Of a DNA stretch of 64,000 bases, positions 1 to 64,000 are shown one piece after another. Within the stretch, counting starts at the first letter, position 1; each line of letters opens with the position of its first letter. The position numbers and the translations under genes are program-made. Under the pieces are notes generated by a model. The model saw only the letters and a list, made by a program, of their open reading frames with translations, searched no databases and was not told the DNA's origin. The DNA is from Calothrix sp. PCC 7716 (GTDB lineage Bacteria > Cyanobacteriota > Cyanobacteriia > Cyanobacteriales > Nostocaceae), in NCBI RefSeq assembly GCF_019977735.1, contig NZ_AP025018.1, positions 806,001-870,000 on the forward strand. Direction: 5' to 3'.

Positions 1-1724
1 TAACTTACCTAGCGAGGAACCAAACGTCAGAATTACGAGTAATCAAAACTCTGAAAGAGGAAGTTATTAATAATCGTACATGGAAAGTACACCGCGATAA
101 ATTACGGCAAGATTTTCGCTCGGAAGGGGTGCGTCTTGCAGTGTGTCGTCACCCTCATATTGTGCAAATCGAAAATATTTTTGATGAGTATGAATTACCT
201 TGTATCGTTATGGAGTATATCGAAGGTGATGATTTAGGCAAGCGGTTAAGAGAACAAGGTATATTATCAGAGAAAGAAGCGCTTTTATATACTCAGCAAA
301 TTGGAGACGCATTAACTGTTATTCATCAAAAAGGTTTGCTACATCGAGATATTAAACCGCGCAATATTATCATTCGTGCGGGCAAACCAGAAGCTGTATT
401 AATAGATTTTGGCATTTCTAGAGAATTTATACCTGGTGTTGTACAACGTCACACTGTCTATCGAACTCCAGGGTTTGCACCTCCTGAACAATACCAACTT
501 GAGGCGCCACGTGGCGAATATATTGATGTTTATGGTTTAGCTGCAACGTTATACACTTTATTAACTGGTGTTGTACCCACTAGTGCTGACGAACGTAACC
601 GTAATACACCACTTTTACCACCAAGTCATTTTAATCAGAATATAAGTACTAGTGTTGACCGGGCTATTATGCAAGCAATGGCAATGCAACCCCAGTATCG
701 TCCTCAATCTGTAAAAGAATGGTTATCACTTTTATCTAATACAATATCACTCCTCACACCCCCACCCAAAATCATACTTAAATCACCCAAACCACCAATT
801 ACACCTCAGTTTACATGGGAATGCACCCGTACTATTAAAGGACATGCGGGTATGGTTCATGCTGTGGCAATTAGTCCTGATGGAAAATTTATTGTGAGTG
901 GTAGTGGTGACAATAATATAAAGCTGTGGAATTTATCTAATTGTCGTAATATCCGCAATTTTGGACGCTGGTTTGCTGGACATAGTGACTCAGTTTGGAC
1001 GGTAGCTATTAGTCCTGATGGGCAAATACTTGCTAGTGGTGGTTGGGATAATACTATTAAACTGTGGTTTTTAAATACTGGTAAGAATATACGTACTCTA
1101 AAAACTCATACTAATTGGGTAAATTGTCTTGCTTTTAGTCCCAATGGGAAGTACTTAGCGAGTGGAAGTTCTGACTGTAGCGTTAAACTTATCCTTATTA
1201 GTACGGGTGATGTTATTAATACCTTTTTGGGTCATACTGATGCGGTGCTATCTGTAGCTTTTAGCCCAGATGGTCAATGTATTGCGTCATCAGGCGCCGA
1301 TTGTACTATTAAGCTGTGGCTTCTTAGTACTGGTCAAGAAATACGTACATTGGTAGGTCATTCGTTTTTTGTAAACAGTCTGACTTTTGATGCAACTGGT
1401 GAAACTCTTATTAGTGGTAGCAGCGATAAAACGATTAAATTTTGGCACGGTGTTACAGGCAGAATTTTGAAAACGTTTACAGGTCATACTCATGCTGTTT
1501 CATCTGTTGCACTCAGTCGAGATATGCAAATCTTAGCTAGTGGTAGCTGGGATAAAACGATTAAACTTTGGCATGTAAGTACGGAAACGGAAATTTGTAC
1601 TCTAACTGGTCATAATAATTACATTAGAACCGTGGCTTTTAGTCCTGATGGGCGCCAGATTGTTAGTGCTAGTGATGACAATACTATTAAGGTTTGGTGT
1701 AACAAAGATTGGCAACGGATGTAA
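1..1724 (+). CDS. Ser/Thr protein kinase with C-terminal WD40 propeller (5' end cut by window)
   Basis: The open frame runs unbroken from base 3, so the GTG at 129 is internal and the true start lies left of the window. Before it the frame encodes part of the kinase N-lobe, including an RVIKTL stretch that would carry the ATP-binding lysine. The catalytic loop HRDIKPRN (about 342-365), the DFG triplet (about 405) and the APPEQY activation-segment motif are intact, so an active Hanks-type kinase is expected. After a Pro-rich linker there are seven WD40 units (GH...SPDG...SGS.D.TIKLW), enough for one closed propeller that likely binds a partner or substrate. Cytoplasmic; no membrane segment is seen. 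Kinase-WD40 fusions are common in filamentous cyanobacteria, but the substrate cannot be inferred. Confidence 0.93.
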   Translation, partial: TYLARNQTSELRVIKTLKEEVINNRTWKVHRDKLRQDFRSEGVRLAVCRHPHIVQIENIFDEYELPCIVMEYIEGDDLGKRLREQGILSEKEALLYTQQIGDALTVIHQKGLLHRDIKPRNIIIRAGKPEAVLIDFGISREFIPGVVQRHTVYRTPGFAPPEQYQLEAPRGEYIDVYGLAATLYTLLTGVVPTSADERNRNTPLLPPSHFNQNISTSVDRAIMQAMAMQPQYRPQSVKEWLSLLSNTISLLTPPPKIILKSPKPPITPQFTWECTRTIKGHAGMVHAVAISPDGKFIVSGSGDNNIKLWNLSNCRNIRNFGRWFAGHSDSVWTVAISPDGQILASGGWDNTIKLWFLNTGKNIRTLKTHTNWVNCLAFSPNGKYLASGSSDCSVKLILISTGDVINTFLGHTDAVLSVAFSPDGQCIASSGADCTIKLWLLSTGQEIRTLVGHSFFVNSLTFDATGETLISGSSDKTIKFWHGVTGRILKTFTGHTHAVSSVALSRDMQILASGSWDKTIKLWHVSTETEICTLTGHNNYIRTVAFSPDGRQIVSASDDNTIKVWCNKDWQRM

Positions 1725-1837
1725 CGGATGATTTGTTGGAAAATACAAAGTTTAACTCTTTAGGTAGAAATGTGGTTAGTCGAAAATTGCCAGAATAAGT
1801 TGCGGCAACTACTATTTTTTTACCAAGATTAATAATT

Positions 1838-2731
1838 ATGGGCTTCGGTATCGGTGATTTATTCTGGATTTTTCTTTTGCTCTCCTCGCTGCAACCTATC
1901 TGGCAACGGCGCCAAACAGAGTATCGTCGTTTCAGTTCGTTACAAAAGTTCCAGCAGGAACGTAAAAGCCGGGTGATTTTGCTTATTCACCGACAAGAAT
2001 CCATCAGTTTGTTAGGGATTCCTTTATCTCGTTATATTACTATTGAAGATTCTGAACAAATTTTACGCGCGATTCGCCTAACTCCAGATGATGTTCCAAT
2101 CGATTTGATTTTACATACACCTGGTGGTTTAGTACTAGCTACTGAGCAAATTGCCCGTGCGTTGATTCGTCATCCATCTAAGGTTACAGTTTTTGTACCA
2201 CACTACGCGATGAGTGGTGGTACGATGTTAGCGCTTGCTGCTGATGAAATTGTGATGGATGCGAATGCAGTGCTTGGACCGGTTGACCCACAGTTAGGTA
2301 ATTTCCCTGCTGCTAGCATTATTAAGGTTGTTGAAGATAAACCAATTGGCGAAGTTGATGACCAAACTTTAATTATGGCTGACTTGTCGCGTAAAGCCCA
2401 AGCGCAGGTACAGCGGTTTGTACGGACATTACTTAAAGACTCCATACCTAAACAAAAGGTTTTACCAGAGAATATCGAAAGTATTATTGACGCTTTAACA
2501 ACTGGACGTGTTACTCACGATTATCCGATTACTGTTGAAGAAGCTACCGAAATGGGTTTACCTGTGACTGTTGGTCTTCCCCGTTCGATTTACACTTTGA
2601 TGGATATGTACCCACAACCTCAAGGTGGTAGACCTAGCGTTCAGTATATTCCTATGCCTTTTGATGACAGGCGCCCGATGTTACCTGTTCCAAAAGGCAG
2701 ACCAATGGAAGAACCTGTACAAAAGTATTGA
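1838..2731 (+). CDS. SDH-family Clp-fold serine proteinase, membrane-anchored
   Basis: The 297-residue product starts with a hydrophobic segment (residues about 5-22) followed by a basic stretch, suggesting an N-terminal membrane anchor. The body matches the serine dehydrogenase proteinase family (Clp/SppA crotonase-like fold): HTPGG near residue 95 forms the oxyanion region and MSGGTMLALAADEI near 126-139 carries the probable nucleophilic serine, followed by LGPVDPQ. The C-terminus is Pro-rich. The usual role is cleavage of membrane-associated or small peptides; the substrate here is unknown. A terminator follows directly, so it ends its transcription unit. Confidence 0.85.
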   Translation: MGFGIGDLFWIFLLLSSLQPIWQRRQTEYRRFSSLQKFQQERKSRVILLIHRQESISLLGIPLSRYITIEDSEQILRAIRLTPDDVPIDLILHTPGGLVLATEQIARALIRHPSKVTVFVPHYAMSGGTMLALAADEIVMDANAVLGPVDPQLGNFPAASIIKVVEDKPIGEVDDQTLIMADLSRKAQAQVQRFVRTLLKDSIPKQKVLPENIESIIDALTTGRVTHDYPITVEEATEMGLPVTVGLPRSIYTLMDMYPQPQGGRPSVQYIPMPFDDRRPMLPVPKGRPMEEPVQKY

Positions 2732-2750
2732 TTTTTTAAGTTTTATTAAT

Positions 2751-2780
2751 AAACCCGTCTTAATATAGGGCGGGTTTTTT
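2751..2780 (+). terminator. Rho-independent terminator after the SDH proteinase gene
   Basis: The stem AACCCGTC / GGCGGGTT (one G-T pair) closes a short AT loop and is followed by a run of six T. It starts about 20 bases after the stop codon. Confidence 0.8.
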
Positions 2781-2887
2781 GTCTCTAGAGATGCGATTTA
2801 ATTGCGTCTCCACAACAACGCGCCAACTATTAGTTGTTACAGCATTATTAGTCTGTGTCATTAAATTTGGTGGGTTACTTCCTCTTC

Positions 2888-3072
2888 TTTCTTCCTTTGT
2901 GTTCTTTGTGACCTTTGTGGTTCATTTCTCTTATCTCCGTGTACTCTGTGTCTCTGTGGTAAAAAAAACATTAGCCTAAAACTTATGATATGGAGTACTA
3001 GGTTCGTATCATAAGTTTTGGGGTGTTGGAAAAAATAACCACAAAGGCACAAAGGGCACGAAGGAAGAATTA
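2888..3072. repeat. CACAGAG/CACAAAGG dispersed repeat pair around a perfect inverted repeat
   Basis: Bases about 2888-2963 are the complement of the degenerate CACAGAG-type repeat common in filamentous cyanobacteria, and 3037-3070 is a related copy in the other orientation. Between them lies a perfect 13 bp inverted repeat (AAAACTTATGATA at 2978-2990, complement at 3007-3019). Further CACAGAG copies occur near 25802 and 43163. The block is palindromic overall and carries no plausible gene. Confidence 0.7.
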
Positions 3073-3113
3073 TTAAGAAGTCAACCTACCAAAATTAATG
3101 ACACAAACTACTA

Positions 3114-3812
3114 CTACCTCGTTGGGGTTGCTGTTGGAGTTGGGGTTTCTGTTGCTTCGGGAGTTGGTGTTGTTTCGGGTGTTGGTGTTTCGGTTGGCGC
3201 CGCTTCGGGTGTTGCAGTTTCGGTTGGGGTTGGGGTTGGAGTTGGTTTTGGTGTCGGTCTGGTTACTGGTTTGCCTGTTGGTCTTGTTGTTGGTTTGGTC
3301 GTTGGTTTGGTTGTTGGACTGGCAGTTGGTTTTTTCTCTAGAATGTTACTTGCTTCTTGGTCAAGCTTTTGTCTCAAAGCGAGGTCAGCTATTCCTGTTT
3401 CGGTTAGCTGGTTTTTCTTTTGATATGCTCTTACTACTGCTTCTGTTCTGGTACTGTAGTATTGGCTACGAGGTAAAGGAGGATTGGGTTTCATTACCAG
3501 GTTGAGGTTTGCTTGTAGAATTTGCATAATTTGCGCGGCAAAGTCCTGGGTTTTTGGACCTGCTACTCCATCGGCTGGTTTTAATCTATACCCTGTTTGA
3601 AATTCTGTAATCGCTTTTTTGGCATCGGCATTTGTTAAGGGTTCGTTAGAAACTTTTATGTCATAACCTAATCCACGTAACACTGCACGAAATTGCTGCG
3701 GTGTATAATCACGTTGACGTACTGCATCCGCTGTATCGGATATTACGACTACTGCGGACACTATACATGCTGTTGCTATGCTAAAACTAGATTTTCCTAT
3801 CCCACACCACAT
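3114..3812 (-). CDS. Secreted peptidoglycan-binding-like protein with Pro/Thr-rich tail
   Basis: The ATG at 3812 is preferred over the upstream TTG because GGAG lies 8 bases before it. The first about 28 residues form a signal peptide. Residues about 35-150 contain two helical PG_binding_1-like units (TPQQFRAVLRGLGY, ADGVAGPKTQ, RTEAVVRAYQKKNQL), which in this family bind cell-wall peptidoglycan. The C-terminal third is low-complexity T-P-K/E repeats, likely a flexible wall-spanning or glycosylated linker. No catalytic domain follows, so it may be a wall-anchored structural protein. Confidence 0.75.
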   Translation of the reverse strand: MWCGIGKSSFSIATACIVSAVVVISDTADAVRQRDYTPQQFRAVLRGLGYDIKVSNEPLTNADAKKAITEFQTGYRLKPADGVAGPKTQDFAAQIMQILQANLNLVMKPNPPLPRSQYYSTRTEAVVRAYQKKNQLTETGIADLALRQKLDQEASNILEKKPTASPTTKPTTKPTTRPTGKPVTRPTPKPTPTPTPTETATPEAAPTETPTPETTPTPEATETPTPTATPTR

Positions 3813-4040
3813 GGTCAAAACTCCTGTTGATTAAATCTGTTGTTAGTAACTAGTTTTTCATTGATTATTGATGATTTTTGAATATTTTTACTGATGTTAA
3901 TTTAATTTAAATAATCTATTGTGACTTTGCTCTGTCATCCTCCGATAGAGGTAACTTGAAATTAACGAAAGTTTTGCCATTAACTAGAAGTGTTGAGTAT
4001 AAAAAATAATACCCCGTAGATTAAAGCGTAATTTAAAAAG

Positions 4041-5471
4041 ATGATTAGCCGAAAACCTTTGAATAGATGGAGTCTGTGGTTTGAGCGATTAATGGCTATT
4101 ACTGCCACAATTAATTTAGGATTTGTTTTATTTGATTTAAGTTACATTCCTTGGCGGGATTTTTACTTACGTAATTTAACTTCTTTGACTCGTTTGTATG
4201 ACCCAGTTAAAGGTATACAACCTCATCGTGAGACAGAAGCTTATTTGGCAGCTGTCACAACTGTTTCTTCTCAAGTTAGTCAAACAGGAGTAGAGTCGAA
4301 AGTTGTTGGCGCCCAGTTAGAGGAATTACGGCGCCTGAGTAGTGAGATAATCGACACGAACCCGTTTGCACTGGCAGACAAAAGTGGAACGCTAGAAAAA
4401 ATCAAGAACCGAATGCGTGACCATACTGGAGAAAAGTCTGCTAAGAAAGCATTCGCTCAGTTCTGGAGTCAAGCAAACCTACAGCAAAAGGGATGGAATC
4501 AAGAAATAGAATTTTTCAATCGTAGAATTAAGCCGCTAATTGCCACCAACTACTACCGTCAAATTGGTGAGAACGGCGAATTGGTTGATAGATTTTTTTG
4601 GATTGACTTCCCCTTCACGTTAATATTCGGCATGGAACTGCTAGCCAGTAGCTTTTTTATCAAACGTCGTCATCCTGAGTTTAGCTGGCTTGAAGCTATT
4701 ATTTGGCACTGGTATAATTTATTACTAATATTACCATTTTGGCGAATTTTGCGTGTGATTCCTGTTATCATCCGTCTTGATAAAGCCAAAATTATTAATT
4801 TTCAATCGATTCGCACGCAAATACATAGAGGTATAGTATCTAACTTCGCAGAAGAATTTACTGAAATTATTGTGGTTCGAGTGATTAATCAAATTCAGGG
4901 TTCTGTAAAGCGGGGTGAATTAACTCGGTGGTTACTTCAAAAAGAAAGTATTCGCCCTTACATTGATATCAATAATGTGAATGAAGTTGAAGCAATTTCT
5001 ACGATTCTGGTGCAAACGGTAATTTATCAGGTTTTACCAAAGATTCAGCCCGAAATTACCGCTATTTTACGCCACAATATTGAAGGCGCCTTAAATCAAG
5101 CACCAGTGTATAAAAATTTGCAAGCACTACCTGGTGTTTCGCAATTTCAAACTCAAATCAGCGAACAGCTAGCATCTCAAATTGCCACAAATCTATATAA
5201 TGCGATAATTAGCGCCGTCGAAGACCCAGTTTCAGCGAGTCTTTCTAGCCAGTTGTTACAGCGTTTTACTGATACCCTCGGCGCCGAAATGCAGAAAAAA
5301 CATGTAATTACAGAACTGCAAAGTCTAGTTTCTGACTTTTTAGAAGAAGTAAAACTTAACTATGTGCAGCGTTTGTCCCAAGAAGATATCCAGCAAGTGC
5401 TTGAGCAAACGCGCTCGATGAAAGTTCAAGCAGTGGTGCATTCAGAAATTGTGCTACCGAAGAGGGAATAG
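4041..5471 (+). CDS. Conserved cyanobacterial membrane protein of unknown function
   Basis: The 476-residue product has a hydrophobic segment at about residues 14-35, a soluble region, and two more hydrophobic segments at about 187-208 and 222-245 (WHWYNLLLILPFWRILRVIP). The second half is helical and soluble, with amphipathic segments rich in Gln and Glu. I recognise the general type (long cyanobacterial membrane proteins with a basic segment after the last helix, resembling part of an ion-channel voltage-sensor region), but not a named family. No function is assigned. Confidence 0.7.
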   Translation: MISRKPLNRWSLWFERLMAITATINLGFVLFDLSYIPWRDFYLRNLTSLTRLYDPVKGIQPHRETEAYLAAVTTVSSQVSQTGVESKVVGAQLEELRRLSSEIIDTNPFALADKSGTLEKIKNRMRDHTGEKSAKKAFAQFWSQANLQQKGWNQEIEFFNRRIKPLIATNYYRQIGENGELVDRFFWIDFPFTLIFGMELLASSFFIKRRHPEFSWLEAIIWHWYNLLLILPFWRILRVIPVIIRLDKAKIINFQSIRTQIHRGIVSNFAEEFTEIIVVRVINQIQGSVKRGELTRWLLQKESIRPYIDINNVNEVEAISTILVQTVIYQVLPKIQPEITAILRHNIEGALNQAPVYKNLQALPGVSQFQTQISEQLASQIATNLYNAIISAVEDPVSASLSSQLLQRFTDTLGAEMQKKHVITELQSLVSDFLEEVKLNYVQRLSQEDIQQVLEQTRSMKVQAVVHSEIVLPKRE

Positions 5472-5572
5472 GGAGACTATGAAACAATACGAGTGCCATG
5501 TCGCGTTTCATAAAGAAAGTTAATTTATAGCTTCTCGCAACCGAAGAAATGCGCTAAACTCGATTATAGAGG

Positions 5573-5651
5573 CGAACCATCTAACGGTTCGTCACAAGAC
5601 TTCTTGAAAGATATCCTTATCGCAGGAAGTGGGTTGTAGCCCACTTTTTTT
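5573..5651 (+). promoter_or_regulatory. rimP leader with terminator-like hairpin (attenuator candidate)
   Basis: A first hairpin CGAACC / GGTTCG (5573-5591) is followed by AGTGGG / CCCACT (5628-5645) and seven T. The T-run ends 15 bases before the rimP ATG, leaving no room for a promoter after it, so rimP transcripts starting upstream must read through this hairpin. That makes attenuation more likely than simple termination of the upstream gene, whose stop is 157 bases earlier. Confidence 0.55.
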
Positions 5652-5666
5652 GTTGGAATTTATTGC

Positions 5667-6134
5667 ATGACTCATCCGTTAGTCCCACAAGTTATTGAAA
5701 TGGCGACACCAGTGGCAGAAGAACTGGGGTTAGAAGTTGTTGGCGCTGTTTTTCATACAAATCAGCGTCCTCCTGTTTTACGGGTAGATATTCGTAATAA
5801 AGAGCAGGATACTGGTTTAGACGATTGTGAGCGAATGAGTCGTGCGTTAGAAGCCTCATTAGATGCAGCATCGATTATTCCAGATGCTTATGTGTTAGAA
5901 GTCTCTAGTCCTGGTATTTCTAGACAACTGACTACTGACCGGGAATTCCTAAGCTTTAAAGGCTTTGGTATTATTGTCTCGACTTCGCCACCCCATGAAG
6001 GACAACAGGACTGGGCAGGTCAACTAATTCGTAGGGATGAAAATAAAGTTTTTTTGAACCTAAAAGGAAGAATTGTTGAGATTCCTCGCTCTCAAATTAC
6101 CAAAGTTCAACTTGACGAGCGTCGAGGTAAATAG
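5667..6134 (+). CDS. rimP: Ribosome maturation factor RimP
   Basis: The product (155 residues) matches RimP throughout: N-terminal [24 protein letters not shown] region, the LRVDIR strand, [15 protein letters not shown] and the [12 protein letters not shown] motif. RimP assists late assembly of the 30S subunit in the cytoplasm. It is the first gene of the conserved rimP-nusA-ylxR-infB cluster, which supports the call. Length is normal for the family. Confidence 0.97.
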
Positions 6135-6420
6135 AAGCGCAATTATTTTTTCTGTCACGCGGCGCCTATCTATATATTAAGGGTAGCTTTATAACTGACA
6201 GAATTTACGCGCGCTATTTGATTATTGGTTTGTTACCAGTAGGCACGCGCCTCCGAAGTGCGTAGTTATTTCGGCTTGCACCTCAAAGTCTGAGATGCAA
6301 GAGTTAGATGCACTCAACTTTCACGGCAAATTTAAATATCAACTATGCAACCCACAATTACTGCCAACAACGAAACAACTAAACAATTAAATTAAAATTG
6401 ATTCTTTGGAGATTTTCACT

Positions 6421-7776
6421 ATGTCAATGATTGAGTTACAGGGATTAAAAGAACTTATCGAAAGTATAAGCCGTGAGCGTAATTTACCTCGTTCGGCTGT
6501 ACAAGCAGCAATTCGCGAAGCATTGCTAAAAGGATACGAACGTTATCGACGCGCTCAAAATATGGAGCGCAGACAGTTTGACGAAGATTATTTCGATAAT
6601 TTTGACGTTCAGCTTGATATCGAAGACCAAGGTTTTCGTGTGGTAGCAACCAAAACAATTGTTGAGCAAGTCGTTAACTCAGACCACGAAATCTCACTCG
6701 AACAAGTCAAAGACATGGGTGGTGAGGGAGCTGAGTTAGGGCAAGAAGTAATTCTTGATGTTACCCCCGACAAAAAAGAAGAGTTTGGACGCATGGCAGC
6801 GATGCAAACAAAGCAAGTGCTAGCGCAAAAGCTTCGCGACCAGCAGCGTCAAATGGTGCAAGAAGAGTTTCAAGACTTGGAAAGTTCGGTATTACAAGCG
6901 CGTGTATTGCGGTTTGAGCGTCAATCTGTAATTTTGGCGGTTAGCAGCGGATTTGGGCAACCTGAAGTCGAAGCTGAGTTGCCAAAGCGCGAACAATTAC
7001 CTAATGATAACTATCGAGCAAACGCAACATTTAAGGTTTATTTAAAGAAAGTATCTCAAGGGCAGCAGCGTGGACCCCAGCTATTGGTATCTCGCGCTGA
7101 TGCTGGTTTAGTAGTATATTTGTTTGCTAATGAAGTTCCCGAAATTGAAGACGAAGTAGTACGAATAGTCGCTGTTGCTAGAGAAGCGAATCCTCCTTCT
7201 CGTTATGTTGGCCCAAGAACCAAAATTGCGGTTGATACTTTAGACCGTGATGTTGACCCTGTTGGCGCCTGTATTGGGGCACGGGGATCACGAATTCAAG
7301 TTGTAGTCAACGAGTTACGCGGTGAGAAAATTGACGTAATTCGCTGGTCTCCTGACCCCGCTACTTATATTGCTAATGCTTTAAGTCCTGCACGAGTTGA
7401 CGAAGTGCGACTAATGGATCCCGAAACTCGTCAAACGCATGTACTAGTAGCGGAAGATCAATTAAGTTTGGCAATAGGTAAAGAAGGGCAAAATGTTCGG
7501 TTAGCAGCTCGCCTAACTGGTTGGAAAATAGATATAAAAGATAAAGCAAAGTACGACCGTGAAGGAGAGGATACTAAATTTGCTGCGGCACGTGCCAAAG
7601 CGGCAGAAGAAGCAGCACGACTTGAAGCTCTTGAAGACGAGTATGATGAGGAATATGAGGAGGACGAAGAGTATGACGAAAAAATGGCACTAGGGAGAGA
7701 TTTTGAGGATTTAGATGAAGATTTGGAGGAATTAGACGAGTTGGACTCCGACCTAGAGGAAGATGTGCGAAGATAA
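6421..7776 (+). CDS. nusA: Transcription termination/antitermination factor NusA
   Basis: The ATG at 6421 is chosen because GGAG at 6408-6411 sits 9 bases upstream; the TTG at 6406 overlaps that site. The 451-residue protein has the N-terminal RNA-polymerase-binding domain, an S1 domain, and two KH domains (VGACIGARGSRIQ and LAIGKEGQNVRLAARLTGW). It binds RNA polymerase and nascent RNA and controls pausing and termination. After the KH domains comes an acidic tail (about residues 395-451) dominated by Glu and Asp, in place of the acidic repeats found in enterobacterial NusA. Second gene of the operon, 286 bases after rimP. Confidence 0.97.
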   Translation: MSMIELQGLKELIESISRERNLPRSAVQAAIREALLKGYERYRRAQNMERRQFDEDYFDNFDVQLDIEDQGFRVVATKTIVEQVVNSDHEISLEQVKDMGGEGAELGQEVILDVTPDKKEEFGRMAAMQTKQVLAQKLRDQQRQMVQEEFQDLESSVLQARVLRFERQSVILAVSSGFGQPEVEAELPKREQLPNDNYRANATFKVYLKKVSQGQQRGPQLLVSRADAGLVVYLFANEVPEIEDEVVRIVAVAREANPPSRYVGPRTKIAVDTLDRDVDPVGACIGARGSRIQVVVNELRGEKIDVIRWSPDPATYIANALSPARVDEVRLMDPETRQTHVLVAEDQLSLAIGKEGQNVRLAARLTGWKIDIKDKAKYDREGEDTKFAAARAKAAEEAARLEALEDEYDEEYEEDEEYDEKMALGRDFEDLDEDLEELDELDSDLEEDVRR

Positions 7777-7869
7777 AACTTTGACACTAAGTACCAATAG
7801 TAAGTAGAGTCAAAGAAACATTACATCTTTTTTTAAGTTTAGAAAGCGCGCAAAGAACGTATCACAATA

Positions 7870-8145
7870 ATGAAACCTAATTATCGACGTTGTTTAAGCT
7901 GTCGCAAAATCGGTTTAAAGGAAGAGTTTTGGCGGATTGTCCGCGTGTTTCCTTCTGGACAGGTACAATTAGATGAGGGCATGGGGCGTTCTGCCTATAT
8001 TTGTCCGTCTTACGATTGTTTAGGAGCAGCTCAGAAAAAAAATCGATTAGGTCGAGCGTTGCACGCAGGGGTTTCTGATGAAATTTATCAGAGCTTGTGG
8101 CAACGGTTGACAGTGGTTCAATCTACAATCGTTAATATTGGTTAA
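7870..8145 (+). CDS. YlxR/RnpM family RNA-binding protein
   Basis: The 91-residue product has the family signature RRCLSCRK near the N-terminus and GRSAYICPSYDCL in the middle. YlxR proteins are always found between nusA and infB; in Bacillus the homologue (RnpM) binds the RNase P RNA and tunes its activity. The position here, 93 bases after nusA and upstream of infB, fits perfectly. Confidence 0.93.
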   Translation: MKPNYRRCLSCRKIGLKEEFWRIVRVFPSGQVQLDEGMGRSAYICPSYDCLGAAQKKNRLGRALHAGVSDEIYQSLWQRLTVVQSTIVNIG

Positions 8146-8609
8146 AACCCCGCGCAACAGCGTTACCCCGAAAGGCAGTTTAAGAACAGTCTTATTCAAT
8201 TGCTCGTCTAAATAATGGTGCGTAGCTTCGGGGTTAATGCCACAATAGTAGTTGAGTAGTTGTTACTTGCTGATTATAAAATTATTTAATCGCATAAGCT
8301 CTTGCTCAAACCTCGGTTATTATCACTGTTTGATTGTGTCGAGTAAACTAAAAAAAAAGTAACAAAGCAAAAAAGACATTAAATTGATACTCCTACTAGG
8401 TAGCGACAAAAAGCCACAAGGCATTAAACCGATTAGGCGCGTGGGTAATGCCAGCACAAAAACAAACATCTCTCTTCCTATATATACTTGGAGGCACCGG
8501 CAAACAGTATTTAACGGCAACCTAAAAGCAGTAACCGAAGGATGGAGATGCGCGTCAAATAGCGCTGGTGACCATCCGCAAAAACTGTATTCTTATAGGG
8601 GAAGAGTGG
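8146..8609 (+). other. Long infB leader / intergenic region
   Basis: These 464 bases hold no convincing gene. There are small inverted repeats: GGCATTA (8420-8426) with TAATGCC (8446-8452), and an imperfect pairing of TACCCCGAA near 8164 with TTCGGGGTTA near 8229. A short frame at 8384-8629 has no family resemblance and overlaps the infB start. The region could hold a separate infB promoter or a structured leader, but nothing decides this. Confidence 0.4.
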
Positions 8610-11750: not shown

Positions 11751-11757
11751 TAAATTT

Positions 11758-25857: not shown

Positions 25858-27048
25858 ATGGCTGTTAAACCGAAGATTTTTTCTTTTTTTGCTGGCTCTG
25901 GTTTTTTAGATTTGGGATTTGAAGTTAGTGGCTATGAGATTGTTTATGTAAACGAGATTTTTAAGCCTTTCATGGCAGCGTATAAATACTCACGTGTAAA
26001 TCTCAATTTGCCTTTGCCTGAATATGGATATCATGACGGGGAAGATAATGATGTTAATAAGCTGATAGAATCTTCTCATGCTAATTATTTAAATAATTTT
26101 GTAAAAGATTGTCGTACAAACGATACAAATGTAATTGGATTTATTGGTGGGCCACCATGTCCTGATTTTTCTATAGGTGGCAAAAATCGTGGTTATTTGG
26201 GTGATAATGGTAAGCTGAGTAGTGTATATGTTGAATTGATTTGTCAACATATGCCTGATTTTTTTGTGTTTGAAAATGTGAAGGGTTTATGGAAGACAAA
26301 AAAACATAATTTATTTTATCAATCTCTGAAGGTAAAATTACAGTCAGCTGGTTATATATTGACAGACCGATTGATTAATGCTATCGAATACGGCGCCCCA
26401 CAAGATAGAGACAGAATTATCTTAATCGGCTTTCATAGTCATTTTTTAAGCAAGATTGGAGTTTTTGGATTTGAATTTCCTTGGCAAAAATATATTGTGT
26501 ATCCTCGAAGTGTTGTTTTTTCTTACCCCTGGCACCAATGCGAACCTTTTGAAGTAGACTCTGTTATTCCTTGCCCTTTAACAATTCCAGAAGAGCTAAC
26601 AGTCGAATCTTGGTTTAGGAAAAATAATGTTTTAAATCATCCTAATTCTCAACACTATTTTCAACCGAGAGCAGGAATTAGTAAATTTGCTTCAATTGCA
26701 GAAGGAGATGATTCGAGAAAATCATTTAAACGTTTGCATCGCTGGCGTTACTCTCCTACTGCTTGCTATGGGAATAATGAAGTGCATTTACATCCTTATA
26801 AAGTCAGGAGAATTTCTGTAGCTGAAGCTTTGGCAATTCAATCTTTACCACAAAGTTTTGTTTTGCCTTATGATATGTCACTCACAAATATGTTTAAAAC
26901 TATTGGAAATGGTGTTCCTTATTTAGCATCAAAAGCTATTGCACAATCTATTATTGATTTTATTAATCAAGCTACTCTCTTGTGGGGTGGGCATCCCGAA
27001 CCGCCCAATACATCTGGAACGGGCAAGGATGCCCATTCCACAATTTAA
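25858..27048 (+). CDS. C5-cytosine DNA methyltransferase, no restriction partner
   Basis: The 396-residue product has the ordered motifs of m5C methyltransferases: motif I FSFFAGSGFLDLGFE (SAM binding), motif IV GGPPCPDFSIGGK with the catalytic cysteine, motif VI FFVFENVKG, motif VIII APQDRDRIILIG, and motifs IX-X IAEGDDSRK / TIGNGVPYLASKAIA. It methylates cytosine within a specific DNA site, which cannot be read from the sequence. No endonuclease or vsr gene is adjacent, so it looks solitary. The last about 20 residues come from a dispersed palindromic repeat, an odd C-terminal extension after motif X. Confidence 0.95.
   Translation: MAVKPKIFSFFAGSGFLDLGFEVSGYEIVYVNEIFKPFMAAYKYSRVNLNLPLPEYGYHDGEDNDVNKLIESSHANYLNNFVKDCRTNDTNVIGFIGGPPCPDFSIGGKNRGYLGDNGKLSSVYVELICQHMPDFFVFENVKGLWKTKKHNLFYQSLKVKLQSAGYILTDRLINAIEYGAPQDRDRIILIGFHSHFLSKIGVFGFEFPWQKYIVYPRSVVFSYPWHQCEPFEVDSVIPCPLTIPEELTVESWFRKNNVLNHPNSQHYFQPRAGISKFASIAEGDDSRKSFKRLHRWRYSPTACYGNNEVHLHPYKVRRISVAEALAIQSLPQSFVLPYDMSLTNMFKTIGNGVPYLASKAIAQSIIDFINQATLLWGGHPEPPNTSGTGKDAHSTI
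26981..27042. repeat. GGGCATCC / GGATGCCC palindromic repeat inside the methyltransferase 3' end
   Basis: The arms at 26981-26996 and 27027-27042 are complementary with two mismatches. Related elements lie near 48600, 50452-50560, 55114-55141, 61450-61482 and 61531-61563. This copy is translated as the tail of the methyltransferase and supplies its stop codon. Confidence 0.8.
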
Positions 27049-54787: not shown

Positions 54788-54912
54788 TGAAAGCCTCTAA
54801 CCGTTACGAACAAATAATTGAGCGTATTTTCCTTTCTAAATATCAAGAAGGGATAAGCGAAGTAGATTTTGTACGGCAAGATATTATCTCAAGATTAAAA
54901 TTTTATTTTTAA
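54787..54912 (+). pseudogene. Stub of a restriction-endonuclease-like gene
   Basis: A 41-codon frame whose ATG overlaps the stop of the methyltransferase remnant (TAATG). It reads SNRYEQIIERIFLSKYQEGI then EVDFVRQDI, the start of a nuclease family that usually follows such methyltransferases, but ends after about 40 residues, when the full protein has several hundred. Confidence 0.6.
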
Positions 54913-55119: not shown

Positions 55120-55141
55120 ATCTACAGGCAGGGATGCCTGT
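55114..55141. repeat. CAGGCAGGGATGCCTGTTCC palindrome
   Basis: Member of the GGGCATCC family at the breakpoint of the PIN-domain fragment. Confidence 0.65.
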
Positions 55142-55170
55142 TCCACAAAACACAAGACACAAGTCACAAG

Positions 55171-57690: not shown

Positions 57691-57834
57691 AATGCGTTCT
57701 CCGCACACGTTGGTGTATCAATTAAATTATCTCGTGGAGCGGCGCCTCAGAACAAACTCAATTTTTTGCAACAAGCGTATACCTTTATTTTTATAAATTG
57801 GTGTTTTTTGACTGACTGTAAAAATTATTACTTT

Positions 57835-57924
57835 ATGAGTGTATCTGATATACCCAACTTGTGGGCGCCTTTAGTGCTATTAAGTTTGATTATCCTGGCT
57901 GCTGTATTTTTTAGCCGTAGTTAA
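57835..57924 (+). CDS. Possible 29-residue single-pass membrane peptide
   Basis: The short frame reads MSVSDIPNLWAPLVLLSLI then LAAVFFSRS: one hydrophobic helix with short polar ends. Small membrane peptides are common in cyanobacterial photosynthetic complexes, but this matches none I know, and it has no clear ribosome site. Confidence 0.35.
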   Translation: MSVSDIPNLWAPLVLLSLIILAAVFFSRS

Positions 57925-58026
57925 TGATAGTCCCCTTACTCTCATACTAAGATGCCAACTAATTAACAATTTTCTCCTTATGAGGGGTACAATAAATGCC
58001 GATTGTCTTGAAAATTTGAATGTTTC

Positions 58027-58584
58027 ATGATTTCCAGTAACGATTTTCGCCCTGGTGTCTCAATTGTATTAGACGGGTCTGTATGGCGGGTTGTGGAGTT
58101 TCTCCACGTTAAACCAGGTAAAGGCGCCGCTTTTGTACGGACTAAGCTCAAAAATGCTCAAAGTGGTAACACCGTAGAACGAACCTTCCGTGCTGGTGAA
58201 ACCGTACCGCAGGCAAACCTTGAAAAAAGCACGATGCAGCACACCTATAAAGAAGGTGACGAGTACGTGTTTATGGATATGGAAACCTACGAAGAGGGTA
58301 GATTAACTGCACAACAAATTGGCGATAAAGTCAAGTACCTTAAGGAAGGTATGGAAGCGAATGTTGTGCGTTGGAATGAGCAAGTGCTTGATGTTGAACT
58401 TCCTAACTCGGTAGTACTCGAAGTCATCGAAACCGACCCAGGTGTTAAAGGTGATACAGCTACGGGTGGTAGTAAACCAGCAAAGTTAGAAACAGGCGCC
58501 ACGGTAATGGTTCCCTTGTTTATTGCACAAGGAGAGCGCATCCGCATTGATACACGCGAAGATAAGTACTTAGGTAGAGAATAA
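58027..58584 (+). CDS. efp: Elongation factor P
   Basis: The 185-residue product matches [34 protein letters not shown] with the tip lysine that is usually modified, and the end [15 protein letters not shown] relieves ribosomes stalled at polyproline. accB follows, the order seen in most cyanobacteria. Confidence 0.98.
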
Positions 58585-58791
58585 GGTAAATGCCTTAGTA
58601 CAGATTCTATTTAAAAAAATAGGTCAACTCTAGTACGCTCCTGTTATGTGTCTAGCCGCGAATGTGCCCGGACGGTTCCCTGCCGTCTGTGCAATGCGCG
58701 CTCAACTACGCGATACATACTTGGAATGGCGCCATTTCAAAATGCGATTTCTACATTCAAACAGAATATTTTAGATGAGGTAATAAAAACT

Positions 58792-59322
58792 GTGGCATTG
58801 GACTTTAGTGAAATCCGCCAATTATTAACAACTATTGCACAAACAGATATTGCCGAAGTAACGCTTAAAAGCGACGACTTTGAGATAACAGTACGTAAAG
58901 CTGTTAGTACTCCTCATCAAATGTTATCTATAGGTCAAGCAGGGTTAGGCAGCACAGAATTAATTTCACAGGCAGCGACACCACAGGTAATAGTGTCACC
59001 TCCTGTGGTAGAATCTGTTGCTAATCGCGTGGATGGTGCAACCGCACCCCCAACAAATCCACCCCCGTCCAACGATTCCAAACTCGTTGAAGTAACTTCC
59101 CCAATGGTAGGCACATTTTATCGCGCGTCTGCACCTGGAGAAGCTCCTTTCATCGAAGTAGGCGGTCGAGTACGTAAAGGTGATACAGTTTGTATCATAG
59201 AAGCCATGAAGCTAATGAATGAAATCGAAGCCGAAATATCTGGCTCTGTGATGGAAATTCTGGTGCAAAATGGCGAACCTGTAGAATATGGTCAACCTCT
59301 GGTGCGAATAAATCCCGATTAG
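58792..59322 (+). CDS. accB: Biotin carboxyl carrier protein of acetyl-CoA carboxylase
   Basis: The GTG at 58792 is chosen: the family N-terminus ([18 protein letters not shown]) starts there and GAGG lies upstream; the open frame extends 48 codons further upstream without family resemblance. The 176-residue product has a Pro-rich linker and the biotinyl site [10 protein letters not shown]. It carries carboxyl groups for malonyl-CoA synthesis. Confidence 0.96.
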
Positions 59323-59387
59323 GTATTAATCTATATAACGGAGATGTAATTTTCACTAATTCAGTGTAGTCTTGCGGGTCAAACCTG

Positions 59388-59732
59388 ATGAAACAAATGT
59401 TGCCTGTACCGCCAGAAGTTGTGCAACAAGTCGCGGAATATTTCAGCTTGCTGAGTGAACCAATGCGGCTAAGGTTGTTGCATCTATTGCGGGATGAAGA
59501 AAAATGCGTACAAGAATTGGTGGAGGCAACACAGACGTCTCAGGCAAATGTCTCAAAACACCTGAAGGTGATGTGGCAAGCCGGAATTCTTAGCCGTCGT
59601 AGTGAAGGCACCTGTGCCTACTACCGGGTAGAGGATGAAATGATTTTTGAACTTTGCAACCGAGTCTGTGACCGTCTTGCGACCAGACTCGAACAGCAAG
59701 CCAAAAACTTTCGCGTCTTAAATACAAAGTGA
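59388..59732 (+). CDS. ArsR/SmtB-family repressor
   Basis: The 114-residue product has the winged helix of ArsR proteins (SEPMRLRLLHLLRDEEKCVQ, TSQANVSKHLKVMWQAGILS). Cysteines at EKCV, GTCAYY and LCNRVC could sense metal, thiol or redox state, but they do not form the classic ELCVCD site. It lies 65 bases after accB and may belong to the same transcript. Confidence 0.9.
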   Translation: MKQMLPVPPEVVQQVAEYFSLLSEPMRLRLLHLLRDEEKCVQELVEATQTSQANVSKHLKVMWQAGILSRRSEGTCAYYRVEDEMIFELCNRVCDRLATRLEQQAKNFRVLNTK

Positions 59733-59745
59733 AATTATCGGTGTT

Positions 59746-59805
59746 GTAGAGACGTGACATGTCACGTCTTAACCTTTAATTAGACGTGATAAATCACGTC
59801 TCTAC
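59746..59805. repeat. Two tandem CATG/AA-centred palindromes
   Basis: AGACGTGACATGTCACGTCT (59750-59769) and AGACGTGATAAATCACGTCT (59782-59801) stand in tandem between convergent genes. Outer GTAGAG / CTCTAC ends also pair. Same family as at 14768 and 35867; likely also a terminator. Confidence 0.8.
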
Positions 59806-59809
59806 ATGG

Positions 59810-60424
59810 CTACAACTGGTAATTTTTAGCAAAGCTGTCACGAGTCAAGGGCTGGTCTAATTCCAAACCTTCCCCACCTAGAACATCCAATTGCTTACCG
59901 TTTACATCAATGTAGACTTTAGCATTGGGGTTCAGGCTAGTGGCAGTATACACAACTTGCCCCACACGTCCTGTCATCGACGCGCTTCCACCACCACTAG
60001 TAAATTCCTCAGATAAATTTACCCGAACAGCATCGTTCTCTATTTTGACTCCTAATACTTTTGTTCCCAATGGAATGGTGCTACTAGTGTCTCCATCATT
60101 TTTTGCAGTCAATAAACCATTGAATGCAGCAGCTATAAACTCACTGGGTTTATCTTTAGATGCTGATACCTTTACGGGTAGAGGCACTAATTCTAAATTT
60201 CTACCAGTATCCCTAAGCAAGTAGATTTCGGCAGTTTGCTCTGTTGTCGCTGGCGGTTTAGTATTATTTTGGCTAACTCTCTCTTTAGGAGGATTGACAG
60301 GCTGAGTATTATTTGTAGCTTGCCATGTTATCCAAGCTACACCAGAACTTACAGCTACAACCGCAGCGGAGACTGCCGCAATTACACCAGAAGAGATACG
60401 ATTATTTCTTGGCTGTTCTCTCAT
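59810..60424 (-). CDS. GerMN domain secreted/anchored protein
   Basis: The ATG at 60424 has AAGGAAGG 7 bases upstream. The 204-residue product has one N-terminal membrane segment (about 14-38), a Pro/Thr linker, then a GerMN domain (AEIYLLRDTGRNLELVPLPV, FIAAAFNGLL, GTKVLGVKIENDAVRVNLSE and YTATSLNPNAKVYIDVNG). Cyanobacterial GerMN proteins are envelope-associated; role unknown. Confidence 0.88.
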   Translation of the reverse strand: MREQPRNNRISSGVIAAVSAAVVAVSSGVAWITWQATNNTQPVNPPKERVSQNNTKPPATTEQTAEIYLLRDTGRNLELVPLPVKVSASKDKPSEFIAAAFNGLLTAKNDGDTSSTIPLGTKVLGVKIENDAVRVNLSEEFTSGGGSASMTGRVGQVVYTATSLNPNAKVYIDVNGKQLDVLGGEGLELDQPLTRDSFAKNYQL

Positions 60425-60488
60425 TTTTTTACCTTCCTTGTCGCTTTGAACCATGAGTATAATGACTATTTACCGCACAAGACGAAAC

Positions 60489-61286
60489 TTATAACCTGAC
60501 ATTCAACCATTTTGAAGAAGGTTCAATTCTTACAAAAGCACCTATTTCTAACTCGCTAGCGTTCATATTAAATTTCAGAATTCGCATTATTAAACCGTCA
60601 GCTTCCAAGTTACGTAAGTTTAAGCGTTGGTTAAGGTTATTTACTATAACATTTAAAAATCGAACAGGGACTTGTTCTGAGTTCATGAGCGCAACTGGAT
60701 TAGTTAGCTGGATTTTTCCTGCTGCTACCGTAATTCCTGTTTCTACCGTTACCAGTAATGGTTTATTATTACCCTCCTCCAGTATTTCTACTTGTAAATT
60801 GACACGCTGATTGGCTAAAAATTTTACTCTAGGATTTGCAATACGGTATATAGGGTTAGACACCGTATTGACTGAACTCATAGAAGCTATGTTCAGTTTA
60901 CTAATGCGCGATAAGAATGTTTCTGACTGTAAAAGCTTATTAACATCGGCTTCGGTAAGAACCACCCTAAAACCAGCTTGCAAAGGCTGCTTAAGAAAAG
61001 GTCGTTTCCCTCTGCTTTGAAGATTAAATTTAATTGCGTCGGTTTCTAACTCCAACGCGGCAATGCGAATATCCTGGCGCCTTAATTGTAGCGAACGTCC
61101 AGCAATTCTAACACGGTTAACTTTTCCTTGTAGCAATTGATGCGTTGGTGCATTATCCACACGCACTTGTAATTGTCCAGAAGTAAACTGCGAACGAATT
61201 GCCTTTTCTGCGGTGCGGTCAACCACAAGTCCAACAGGAGTTATTAAACCCAGTAACCCAGACAAAAGTATAGTCAACAATTCCAT
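60489..61286 (-). CDS. DUF2993 (LmeA-like) protein
   Basis: The 265-residue product has an N-terminal hydrophobic segment, then the DUF2993 pattern (TAEKAIRSQFTSGQLQVRVD, LQGKVNRVRIAGRSLQLR, FRVVLTEADVNKLLQSE). Family members fold like TULIP/lipid-binding proteins at membranes. It may take part in lipid or envelope maintenance. Confidence 0.85.
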   Translation of the reverse strand: MELLTILLSGLLGLITPVGLVVDRTAEKAIRSQFTSGQLQVRVDNAPTHQLLQGKVNRVRIAGRSLQLRRQDIRIAALELETDAIKFNLQSRGKRPFLKQPLQAGFRVVLTEADVNKLLQSETFLSRISKLNIASMSSVNTVSNPIYRIANPRVKFLANQRVNLQVEILEEGNNKPLLVTVETGITVAAGKIQLTNPVALMNSEQVPVRFLNVIVNNLNQRLNLRNLEADGLIMRILKFNMNASELEIGAFVRIEPSSKWLNVRL

Positions 61287-61449
61287 ATAAAAGTTATCAC
61301 GTGCTTTTTATTACATATAGCCTCCAGTAGAGTAACACTAATAATTAAAATATCAAGTTGAGACGAGGAGATATATACTACTTCATGGTGTTTAAGCTTG
61401 ATTCCGAACAAAGCAGCAAACCCACAAAAATTATCTTTCTTGTGTCTAT

Positions 61450-61563
61450 CTTGTGGAGCGGGCATCCCGGAGCGCCCATAAAAATTTGCAGCCCATAAAA
61501 AATTTCAGATCACCAACAACCATAAGTTTTACTGGGACGGGCAAGGATGCCCATCCCACAAGA
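61450..61563. repeat. Two GGGCATCC-type palindromes
   Basis: TTGTGGAGCGGGCATCCCGG (from 61451) and ACGGGCAAGGATGCCCATCC (from 61536) belong to the dispersed family. The second overlaps the end of the truncated acetyltransferase gene and encodes its last residues. Confidence 0.7.
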
Positions 61564-61929
61564 AGCTATTTGACAAGAAGCTATTTGACAAGAAGCTATC
61601 TTACAGAGGTTTTTTTGAGCCGACTCCTCGCTATAAATAGATTTTGGGTCAAGTAAGGAAGATTCATCTATAGTATGGAGTTGGTCACTACCATATAGTA
61701 ATTTGCGATAACTCCATCCACCGCATCCAATTATACCAGTATTGTTTTCTACTACAAAATAAGTACCATCTTTGATAAGCTGGCTATCAACACCAAAAAC
61801 AGAACCCAAGGCGCCTTCTCGAAGTTCAAGAGAATAATAATCTTTTTGTAATTGGTGAACTGAATGAGGGATAAGTTCATGTAAAGCAGGGATATCCTGA
61901 TGCGTAGCTAGATGTAATATCCATTCCAT
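61510..61929 (-). pseudogene. Truncated GNAT acetyltransferase
   Basis: The first about 95 residues match a GNAT family member (LATHQDIPALHELIPHSVHQ, GALGSVFGVDSQLIKDGTYF, GIIGCGGWSYRK). The acetyl-CoA-binding strand and loop (FFVHPxxxRxGxG) that should follow LLDPKS are missing. The last residues (CQIASCQIASCGMGILA) come from a 15 bp tandem repeat and a GGATGCC repeat. Confidence 0.85.
61558..61602. repeat. Three 15 bp tandem units (ACAAGAAGCTATTTG)
   Basis: Units at 61558-61572, 61573-61587 and 61588-61602; the last has two changes at its end. They extend a GGATGCC repeat into the acetyltransferase fragment. Confidence 0.9.
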
Positions 61930-61937
61930 ACAGTTTT

Positions 61938-62779
61938 ATGATATTAAACCGCAAAAATAACGGGAAAACAGTAACGTTAGACTTTTACCGTAGTCAGGCG
62001 CCATTCAAAACTTTACTTCTACTATATCGCCATGATTGGCACAAGCTTTTACTATCACTGCTATTTTATGTAATCAAGCACAGTCCAGAGTGGATACGTC
62101 CTGTAGTTTTTGCCAATATTGTTGATATTATCTCTCGACCTCAACAACATCAGTTAACTGAGCTTTGGCTTAACGGCGCCGTTTTAGCTGTATCTATTGT
62201 TCAAAATATACCTACTCATTACTGGCATATCATGGCAATGAGCGCAGCAACTCGCCAAATGGAAGTTAATTTACGGTATAGTTTGACACAGCAATTACAG
62301 CAACTCAGTATTGGATTTTATAAGCAGCACAGTACTGGTGTATTGCAGTCTAAGCTTTTGCGAGATGTAGAAGAAATTCAAATACTGACTACCTATATTT
62401 TTCAGCTTGTACCTGCGGCATTATTAACGATTTTAGTTTCTGTGGTAGTTACTGTGGTGAAAATGGCGTTAAACTTTCAGGTGGTCAACGTCAAAGACTA
62501 GCCATAGCGCGCGCGTTAATTCGTAATCCCAAAGTATTAATATTAGACGAAGCAACAGCATCAGTAGACACCGCAACCGAAGCATTAATTCAACAAGCAC
62601 TCGAACGCTTAATGAAAAACCGTACAACCTTCGTAGTAGCTCACCGACTTTCGACTATTCGTAAAGCCGACCGAATAGTAGTATTAGAAAAAGGAAAAAT
62701 CGTAGAAATTGGTAATCATCATCAACTTTTACAAAACTCTAATGGTATGTACGCCCAATTTAGAGCATTACAAGCGTAG
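61938..62779 (+). pseudogene. ABC exporter gene with large internal deletion and frameshift
   Basis: The first part (61938 to about 62458) encodes the N-terminal four membrane helices of an ABC exporter. From 62459, in another frame, the end of the ATPase domain follows: [20 protein letters not shown] (signature), [12 protein letters not shown] (Walker B), [19 protein letters not shown] and a TAG at 62777. Walker A and hundreds of codons are missing and the frame shifts, so it is inactive. Confidence 0.9.
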
Positions 62780-62875
62780 AGTATCAGAAAACGACACTTT
62801 GATTTAGTTGCCTTATGATACTGACACGAACTATCATGTAAAGGTAAAATAAATCCTGAAGAAGGAAAACACAAA

Positions 62876-63364
62876 TTGTTTGAGGTTACACAATTTCAAG
62901 TAAAAACAGGGAAGACTGTTGCCTGTGCTAGAAAAGGTAAGGTATTAGTTGCTTTAACCAAGGTGGAAATTTACGCTATGGGTAAGGTTGCCATGTATCC
63001 TTATGAGGAGCTTCGAGAACTTCAACAAATGAAACAGACAGCCCGTAAAGAATTTGACAATAACCCAGAGAATGAGGAAAGGTTAAAAAAAATAAAAGAC
63101 TTGAAGCATAATTATGAACGCTCTCAAGCTATGCTAAAAGCAATTAAATGTGTAGGGCTGGCAGATACTGTTGATGATATTAATATGATTATTTTACACT
63201 TGCTATCTGTTGGTGAGCGAGTAACCGTTGAAACACGTGTTGATTATCCTAGTATAATAGAAGGTAGAAATAATCAACTGAAAGTTTATAGTACATGGGC
63301 AGTACTAGAGGATAATATAAAATATTTATCAACTATCAGGTTTACCCCCGAATTAGGAGAATAA
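62876..63364 (+). CDS. Unknown protein, first gene of a terminal pair
   Basis: The TTG at 62876 has GAAGGA upstream; no ATG fits. The 162-residue product is charged, with a helical coiled segment (residues about 45-90, EELRELQQMKQTARKEFDNN) and a beta-rich end (VTVETRVDYPSI). I do not recognise the family. The start reads like the continuation of a longer protein (KLFEVTQFQVKTGK), so it may be the tail of a lost toxin or a complete small protein. Three bases separate it from the next gene. Confidence 0.5.
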   Translation: MFEVTQFQVKTGKTVACARKGKVLVALTKVEIYAMGKVAMYPYEELRELQQMKQTARKEFDNNPENEERLKKIKDLKHNYERSQAMLKAIKCVGLADTVDDINMIILHLLSVGERVTVETRVDYPSIIEGRNNQLKVYSTWAVLEDNIKYLSTIRFTPELGE

Positions 63365-63367
63365 ATT

Positions 63368-63865
63368 ATGGATATTAATGAATTTATGATGTTGACAGAT
63401 GAAGATATAGACTATAGTAGTTTATCAGTAGATATACTTAAAGGACTGGCTTTAGGTGACGAGTTATTTATTGCGACTTCTGCTTTAGGAGAGTTGTCTC
63501 GACGAAACAGTAGTGTAGCAGTTTCAACTGCTTGGGAGATTTTATTAAACTCACGTGGTGATTGTTATTTACAAGCTGCTGCGTTAGAAACTATTTTTGA
63601 ATATGACCAAGAAAAAGCATTAACTTATATAAGCGAACAAGTTCCTAAATGTAATACTTACATTTTGAATTCAATTCTAGAAATAATGATAGAAAACGAG
63701 TTTGTATTTAAATCAAAAAATGTTTCGTCTTTAGTTAGCATTGTTCTACAACGAGTAAAGGGACTTGACTCCACAACACAATATCCTGAGCCAGAAGTTA
63801 TAGATAACTTTTTGAACATGTACAGTAATATCAAAAATACTCAAGTCGTGGATGCTTTAACGTAA
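63368..63865 (+). CDS. Helical-repeat protein, possible immunity protein
   Basis: The 165-residue product is made of HEAT-like helix pairs (ELFIATSALGELSRRNSSVA, YLQAAALETIFEYDQEKALT, TYILNSILEIMIENEFVFKS) and resembles helical immunity proteins of contact-dependent systems. It is translated from an ATG 3 bases after the previous gene. The 135 bases after it contain nothing recognisable. Confidence 0.55.
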   Translation: MDINEFMMLTDEDIDYSSLSVDILKGLALGDELFIATSALGELSRRNSSVAVSTAWEILLNSRGDCYLQAAALETIFEYDQEKALTYISEQVPKCNTYILNSILEIMIENEFVFKSKNVSSLVSIVLQRVKGLDSTTQYPEPEVIDNFLNMYSNIKNTQVVDALT

Positions 63866-64000
63866 TTATCAAAATCTAACATTTTTTACTCATCCTTGCG
63901 CGACTGATATATTGCCCGTGAGTACTTACCATATAGGGGACAACATAAGTCAGACCAGCAGAAATCCAGCGTCCTGAGTTCATTTGACCGTTTAGTAATG

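Follow-up and report, generated by a model that had tools for sequence, protein, structure and literature searches.

Most cyanobacteria carry HIP1 (GCGATCGC), a highly iterated palindrome (HIP) that occurs about once per kb, whether the DNA is coding or not, and is linked to methyltransferases. Alternate HIPs, as described by Elhai 2015 (PMC4390886), are highly over-represented GC-rich palindromes, generally with 1000-2000 copies per Mb. GGCGCC is reported there in the place of HIP1 for Calothrix PCC 7103 and D253, and RCCGGY, likewise a GC-rich palindrome in HIP1's place with a different word and enzyme, for Oscillatoria PCC 10802. For the GGCGCC Calothrix, the same paper lists an endonuclease for GATC, one truncated methyltransferase for CGATCG and two for GRCGYC, proposes a GmC-directed mismatch repair, states that the position methylated in GRCGYC was not yet known, and regards exceptional HIPs as sporadic and not clade-wise. 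According to Neely and Roberts 2008 (PMC2413257), the base that M.BsaHI methylates in GRCGYC is the inner C, and the motifs SPERRFD, WGKNQF and DKAF were not found beyond BsaHI endonuclease homologues.

Here we analyze a 64,000-nucleotide stretch of Calothrix sp. PCC 7716 (the window; positions 806001-870000 of the 11.4-Mb contig C1 in the source genome, G000), which is rich in GGCGCC, together with the genus, family and order to which it belongs. GGCGCC shares with HIP1 a density near one per kb, its presence in coding and non-coding DNA and a probable link to methyltransferases, and differs in that HIP1 is another word, includes GATC and has other enzymes. The word, the loss of HIP1, the depletion of GATC, the predicted GATC endonuclease and the likely GRCGYC methyltransferases agree with what Elhai (PMC4390886) describes, and PCC 7103 is one of our six genus relatives (G004). 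Our account differs in that seven species share the word, rates of substitution are estimated for it, and a methylation site is available from the BsaHI work of 2008. The phenomenon itself was therefore already described for PCC 7103 and D253, and the replacement of HIP1 by GGCGCC is new as a genus-wide trait of seven species. Full-text literature searches, with most subscription journals outside their coverage, brought up no subsequent work that treats GGCGCC as a HIP. With a probability of about 0.7, we regard GGCGCC as an alternate HIP that is explained by a GATC restriction pair, a BsaHI-type 5-methylcytosine (m5C) methyltransferase and the return of deaminated copies.

GGCGCC holds the place of HIP1 throughout the genus

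The sequence-only reading had estimated about 115 GGCGCC copies in the window and had seen no HIP1 octamer. Both points were confirmed by counting: there are 116 GGCGCC palindromes (1..64000, no strand; 1.8 per kb, across the whole window), compared to about 4 expected from composition, and 0 copies of HIP1. A maximal-order Markov model predicts 55 GGCGCC, an expectation that is inflated by GGCGC and GCGCC, which are themselves contained in the word. The lack of HIP1 from the window is little informative alone, because composition predicts only about 0.35 copies, and the case is carried by the genome count and the relatives. In the entire genome (12,367,066 bases), GGCGCC occurs 20,380 times (1,650 per Mb), a reversed-word control 7 times and HIP1 66 times. 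A 20-kb stretch of contig C2 that resembles a Calothrix NIES-4105 plasmid contains 29 GGCGCC. Among other words in the window, GCGCGC is present 34 and CGCGCG 35 times, and GATC 12 times versus 147 expected from the Markov model.

The genus consists of large filamentous cyanobacteria and is represented by seven genomes, namely the window genome, Dulcicalothrix desertica PCC 7102, Calothrix PCC 7103, HK-06, NIES-4105 and two Calothrix metagenome-assembled genomes (MAGs). All seven contain between 7,475 and 20,380 GGCGCC (1.15-1.71 per kb, or 1,150-1,710 per Mb), versus 3-530 in 29 family genomes from other genera. HIP1 is low or nearly absent in all seven, with 31-163 copies per genome versus 535-7,721 in the same 29, of which G028 is lowest. 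Words other than these two were counted in two pooled samples, one of 684 kb from all seven members of the genus and one of 400 kb from ten family genomes with HIP1. In the genus pool, GGCGCC tops the over-represented hexamers (1129 copies, 31 times composition; the next palindrome, CGCGCG, reaches 8.8 times). In the HIP1 pool there is a single copy (0.03 times composition), and HIP1 itself is found 299 times (114 times composition). Genome counts and samples thus showed neither a GGCGCC frequency on a par with other GC palindromes nor an enrichment of HIP1 elsewhere, the two outcomes that the sequence-only reading had named as fatal to its claim that GGCGCC holds HIP1's place, and this claim is supported genome-wide and across all seven species.

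The word had also been said to occur in coding and non-coding DNA alike. It is present in both, but unequally, with 1.84 copies per kb in open reading frames (ORFs) of at least 150 aa and 1.05 outside; the genus sample has 171 copies wholly outside ORFs. Copies within ORFs occupy all three codon phases (536, 175 and 247, total 958, the 536 being in the Gly-Ala phase), and three synonymous shuffles of the ORFs yielded 73 copies on average instead of the real 958. Overall, there is about one site per 0.6 kb, and sites occur in both kinds of DNA and in every phase. Close pairs of sites are scarcer than expected in the genus sample (14 versus 47 for gaps of 0-25 bp), possibly due to hairpin avoidance.

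Substitutions at GGCGCC sites

Substitution data were taken from two loci (HK-06 is absent from one, and two more species are only partly aligned there). A tree built from 40,823 full columns groups the window genome with PCC 7102, then with PCC 7103, then with the pair of FI2-JRJ7 and HK-06, against NIES-4105 and the C42 MAG. In consensus GGCGCC, singleton transitions of the inner C were found in 42 of 231 cases, versus 61 of 836 at GCG elsewhere (2.5 times, p = 4e-6), and inner-C transversions were never found. Singleton transitions at positions 1 and 2 (3.8% and 2.1%) were below the 5.6% for C/G outside CpG. The inner-C excess is as expected from GG(m5C)GCC and is an indirect hint of methylation; the word probably bears a chemical mark and is probably maintained by repair.

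The 42 singleton losses split into 31 changes to GGTGCC/GGCACC, 7 other single changes and 4 multiple ones. On the stem of the five close species, 6 gains face 4 losses, and a steady state remains acceptable under a two-state model (likelihood ratio test 0.24). Net decay is suggested by the parsimony counts given below, but not by this model. The share of GGCGCC sites that read GGTGCC/GGCACC in a partner species is 3-14%, without a rise from distance 0.05 to 0.32.

Loss and return were separated in a three-state model with a free root, using 69,476 windows of alignment with at least 5 species, 177 of them containing GGCGCC. The return from GGTGCC/GGCACC to GGCGCC has a rate of 21 (9-33 in 60 bootstraps), compared to 0.45 in 15 pooled control words, and the fit with this rate held at 0.594 is worse by a likelihood ratio of 94. 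Loss to GGTGCC/GGCACC is estimated at 3.6 (1.8-5.0) versus 1.9 in the same control words, loss to other words at 0.16 (0-1.1) versus 3.5, and gain from all other words at 0.0008 (bootstrap 0-0.002) versus a per-word control of 0.0036 (15 words). Four more word sets gave 0.6-1.2 for return, 1.0-2.0 for loss to the deamination product and 2.1-5.3 for loss to others. The inner C is thus where GGCGCC is struck, and in the model the word is restored. Windows with GGTGCC/GGCACC but without GGCGCC in any species number 20 (10 nonsynonymous, 7 synonymous, 3 non-coding), too few to decide about sequence-specific conversion of GGTGCC.

Conservation of sites at third codon positions, proposed as a check by the sequence-only reading, is seen in deeper comparisons. 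For NIES-4105, codons inside sites versus the same codons elsewhere are conserved in 75/92 versus 92/191 cases for GGC and in 81/90 versus 130/243 cases for GCC. In several species, CGC and GCG show a smaller difference or one that lacks significance, and GGC shows none in FI2-JRJ7 (55/69 versus 106/137) and HK-06 (45/55 versus 105/118).

A predicted GATC restriction pair and depletion of GATC

In all seven genus genomes, a DpnII-family endonuclease (E-values 3e-92 to 5e-95) is found beside a D12 adenine methyltransferase, a predicted DpnII-type restriction pair that in the source genome lies outside the window (G000:C1:3770729-3772570). The DpnII profile match is 139-219 bases from the D12 match in every genome, with no stops inside, and the intergenic distance is 28-54 bases at the three loci with listed ORFs. 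The D12 enzymes of the six other members are 84-97% identical to the one of G000, versus about 40% for the enzyme of HIP1 relatives, and no DpnII match was found in any of the four HIP1 relatives searched. GATC is present at 0.04-0.21 of expectation in the genus genomes, versus 0.69 in the HIP1 pool. Pair and depletion fit a GATC restriction that pushes out HIP1, as Elhai (PMC4390886) proposes for PCC 7103. G028 was considered as a second GATC-restriction case and rejected, as its weak DpnII match is a BanI-family enzyme.

C5 cytosine methyltransferases

PF00145 matches number 9-17 per genus genome, fragments included. A BsaHI-type family is found in all seven genomes, and its member in the source genome, the candidate GGCGCC methyltransferase, lies outside the window (G000:C1:10950554-10951489). 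The chromosomal copy adjoins a RuBisCO-like gene in six of the seven genomes, the other five being 81-99% identical to the PCC 7102 copy; in HK-06, the methyltransferase is on a 16.8-kb contig. Several genus genomes have second copies with about 60% identity.

The search for endonuclease motifs covered all reading frames of a locus and did not depend on annotated neighbours. At least one of SPERRFD, WGKNQF and DKAF was detected at 10 of 11 loci of homologues from outside the genus, and at least one BsaHI endonuclease motif at 52 of 73 loci in a wider set (the best 80 of 253 relatives). None of the three motifs was found in 12 genus loci that cover all seven genomes, the search being confined to these loci, and no cognate endonuclease was found there beside the methyltransferase. 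The genus enzymes are thus connected to the BsaHI system by methyltransferase homology via common endonuclease neighbours and by the recognition loop, in which an arginine, followed by glycine or alanine, upstream of a TI pair matches the description by Neely and Roberts (PMC2413257). They differ from it in that the chromosomal methyltransferase has no BsaHI-type endonuclease motif in the flanks examined. Neighbouring motifs and recognition loop together point to this methyltransferase as the likely GGCGCC enzyme, with predicted specificity for the inner C of GRCGYC.

Another C5 family is present in seven of eight genomes examined from other genera, and the eighth, G018, has a 47% relative. 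This methyltransferase of the HIP1 relatives was not found among the genus loci fetched and clustered, in which unplaced PF00145 matches are covered in part (20 regions, the rest being mostly fragments). We take the missing family to be possibly DmtC. The window itself encodes a C5 cytosine-DNA methyltransferase of 396 aa (25858..27048, + strand; PF00145) that belongs to a third family, with members in all seven genus genomes and in 14 of 18 family genomes from other genera (one partial match). As it is not specific to GGCGCC genomes, it is probably not the enzyme for GGCGCC.

Origin and maintenance of the word

The data show the word counts, their distribution over the genomes searched, the genes present at the loci searched, a hot spot of C-to-T change and, within the model, a return faster than in control words; from there we infer methylation itself, the specificity of the enzyme, the order of events and the restoring mechanism. 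In the common ancestor of the Calothrix/Dulcicalothrix genus, a GATC-cutting restriction-modification pair would have rendered GATC, and hence HIP1, costly, and the C5 methyltransferase common to HIP1 relatives would have been lost. GGCGCC would then have become the methylated palindrome, written by the chromosomal BsaHI-type m5C methyltransferase (GRCGYC, inner C) without its endonuclease. Methylated C would deaminate, and the resulting GGTGCC/GGCACC copies would be brought back to GGCGCC by mismatch repair linked to methylation, by selection, or by recombination with copies that are still intact, candidates that the data do not tell apart.

Several observations weigh against this account. 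Hassallia, Spirirestis, Tolypothrix brevis and Plectonema have a 66-67% identical methyltransferase without endonuclease motif in the flanks (up to 8 kb), yet contain 10-20 HIP1 and 1, 0, 0 and 0 GGCGCC, respectively (14-17 kb each); hence, the presence of this enzyme is not sufficient to generate GGCGCC. In G028, GATC is at 0.06 of expectation and HIP1 is weak (8 in 97 kb or 17 times composition; 535 in 10.7 Mb), and no replacement palindrome was found in the 97-kb sample. Singleton changes in the five close species amount to 42 losses versus 4 gains (26 ambiguous windows set aside), a decay-like pattern also seen on the NIES-4105 branch (8 losses versus 2 gains). Transversions at positions 1 and 2 of GGCGCC are not under background (2.1% and 2.9% versus 2.1%). 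The restoration estimate is based on two loci with 177 GGCGCC windows, and within-species tip variants, which would mimic restoration, could inflate it.

An origin of GGCGCC as a side effect of base composition, codon choice or the use of dipeptides would be in line with the predominance of the Gly-Ala phase (536 of 958 ORF sites), but is highly improbable in view of the 73 copies left by synonymous shuffling, the 171 copies wholly outside ORFs, and the single copy in 400 kb of sister genera with similar G+C (0.41). A drive by methylation-linked mismatch repair, either Elhai's GmC-directed one or a very-short-patch-like non-Vsr enzyme, could write GGCGCC without any benefit of the word. Return of GGTGCC/GGCACC is tens of times above controls and gain from other words not clearly above the per-word control, so that the deamination product appears singled out. 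Vsr (very short patch) repair itself was rejected, as the Vsr family PF03852 was found in none of the seven genus genomes, with matches in 5 of 14 control genomes in the same profile search. GGTGCC is also not depleted (1.40 times composition in the genus versus 0.62 in HIP1 relatives), and GGCGTC/GACGCC, the substrates of Elhai's ratchet, are depleted relative to other position-2 variants about equally in HIP1 relatives and in the genus. Such a drive is possible, though less likely than not.

Selection or biased recombination for the word, for example because it serves as a mark at intervals in repair, segregation or DNA uptake, with lost copies purged or replaced from kin, would agree with about one site per 0.6 kb in both coding and non-coding DNA and in all phases, with the slow change to non-deamination words (0.16 versus 3.5 in controls), with the shortage of close pairs and with the conserved third positions in deeper comparisons. 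If simple selection were strong enough to bring copies back so fast, the frequent GGTGCC changes on tips should not occur, as judged from the rate model; about 20,000 sites would each need their own selection, and the avoidance of close pairs may reflect hairpins only. Selection or biased recombination is somewhat unlikely as the explanation. A more far-reaching proposal is that non-Vsr rewriting coupled to methylation returns GGTGCC/GGCACC to GGCGCC at tens of times the pace of ordinary mutation, that methyltransferase and repair together write and hold the roughly 20,000 marks, and that HIPs in general are the trace of such writing; taken as a whole, it is unlikely.

Other genomes and other words

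The order was surveyed by an even draw of 291 genomes. Twelve genomes from other genera exceeded 1,000 GGCGCC, of which G201 and G094 were examined by composition, and one outlier beyond the genus emerged, G094 with 9,489 copies. In a 152-kb sample of this genome (G+C 0.54), CGGCGCCG is at 39 times composition, AGCGCC/GGCGCT at 7, GGCGCC at 5.8 and HIP1 at 0.95. Three further genomes of its genus were sampled; HIP1 reaches 66-80 times composition in two of them, and G042 is enriched in neither word. G094, which belongs to another family, encodes a 54% identical homologue of the BsaHI-type methyltransferase and is likely a second, independent alternate HIP case. G201 was ruled out as a further GGCGCC case (20 kb, G+C 0.50, GGCGCC 1.55 times composition, HIP1 123 times), as was G169 (20 kb, GGCGCC 1.47 times composition), which has RCCGGY as its own word. 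In G169 (L171:1-20000), RCCGGY is over-represented (GCCGGT 17 times) and HIP1 is not found in 20 kb; it is likely a further RCCGGY-type alternate HIP case, resembling Oscillatoria PCC 10802.

The sequence-only reading had also pointed to an enrichment of GCGCGC and to two related GC-core words. In the genus sample, GCGCGC (227 copies, 6.2 times composition) and CGCGCG (321, 8.8 times) are indeed enriched, also above synonymous shuffles. The idea of a second related word is not supported, because both turn over ordinarily at the central CpG, and they were rejected as a second HIP. Several palindromes are strongly avoided in the same sample (GGCC 0.15, TGCGCA 0.02 and GAGCTC 0.02 times composition, GTGCAC none), as many restriction systems would cause. 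ACTCAGCACT reaches about 120 times composition and its rotations 92-152 times, the source being short heptamer-like tandem repeats.

Significance

New are the sharing of GGCGCC by seven species, the accompanying gene differences, the footprint at the inner C and the estimated restoration. The function of HIP sequences is a long-standing open question, for which a seven-species genus that swapped one HIP for another, with sister genera as controls, is a natural experiment. Candidate genes can be named, as the GATC restriction pair is present, the C5 methyltransferase of the relatives was not found among the loci fetched, and the GRCGYC-type methyltransferase is solitary; the substitution record separates loss from restoration. 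The seven-species clade counts against the view of exceptional HIPs as sporadic and not clade-wise, and it weakens the case for a special function of HIP1 in so far as this was built on alternate HIPs being sporadic and not persisting.

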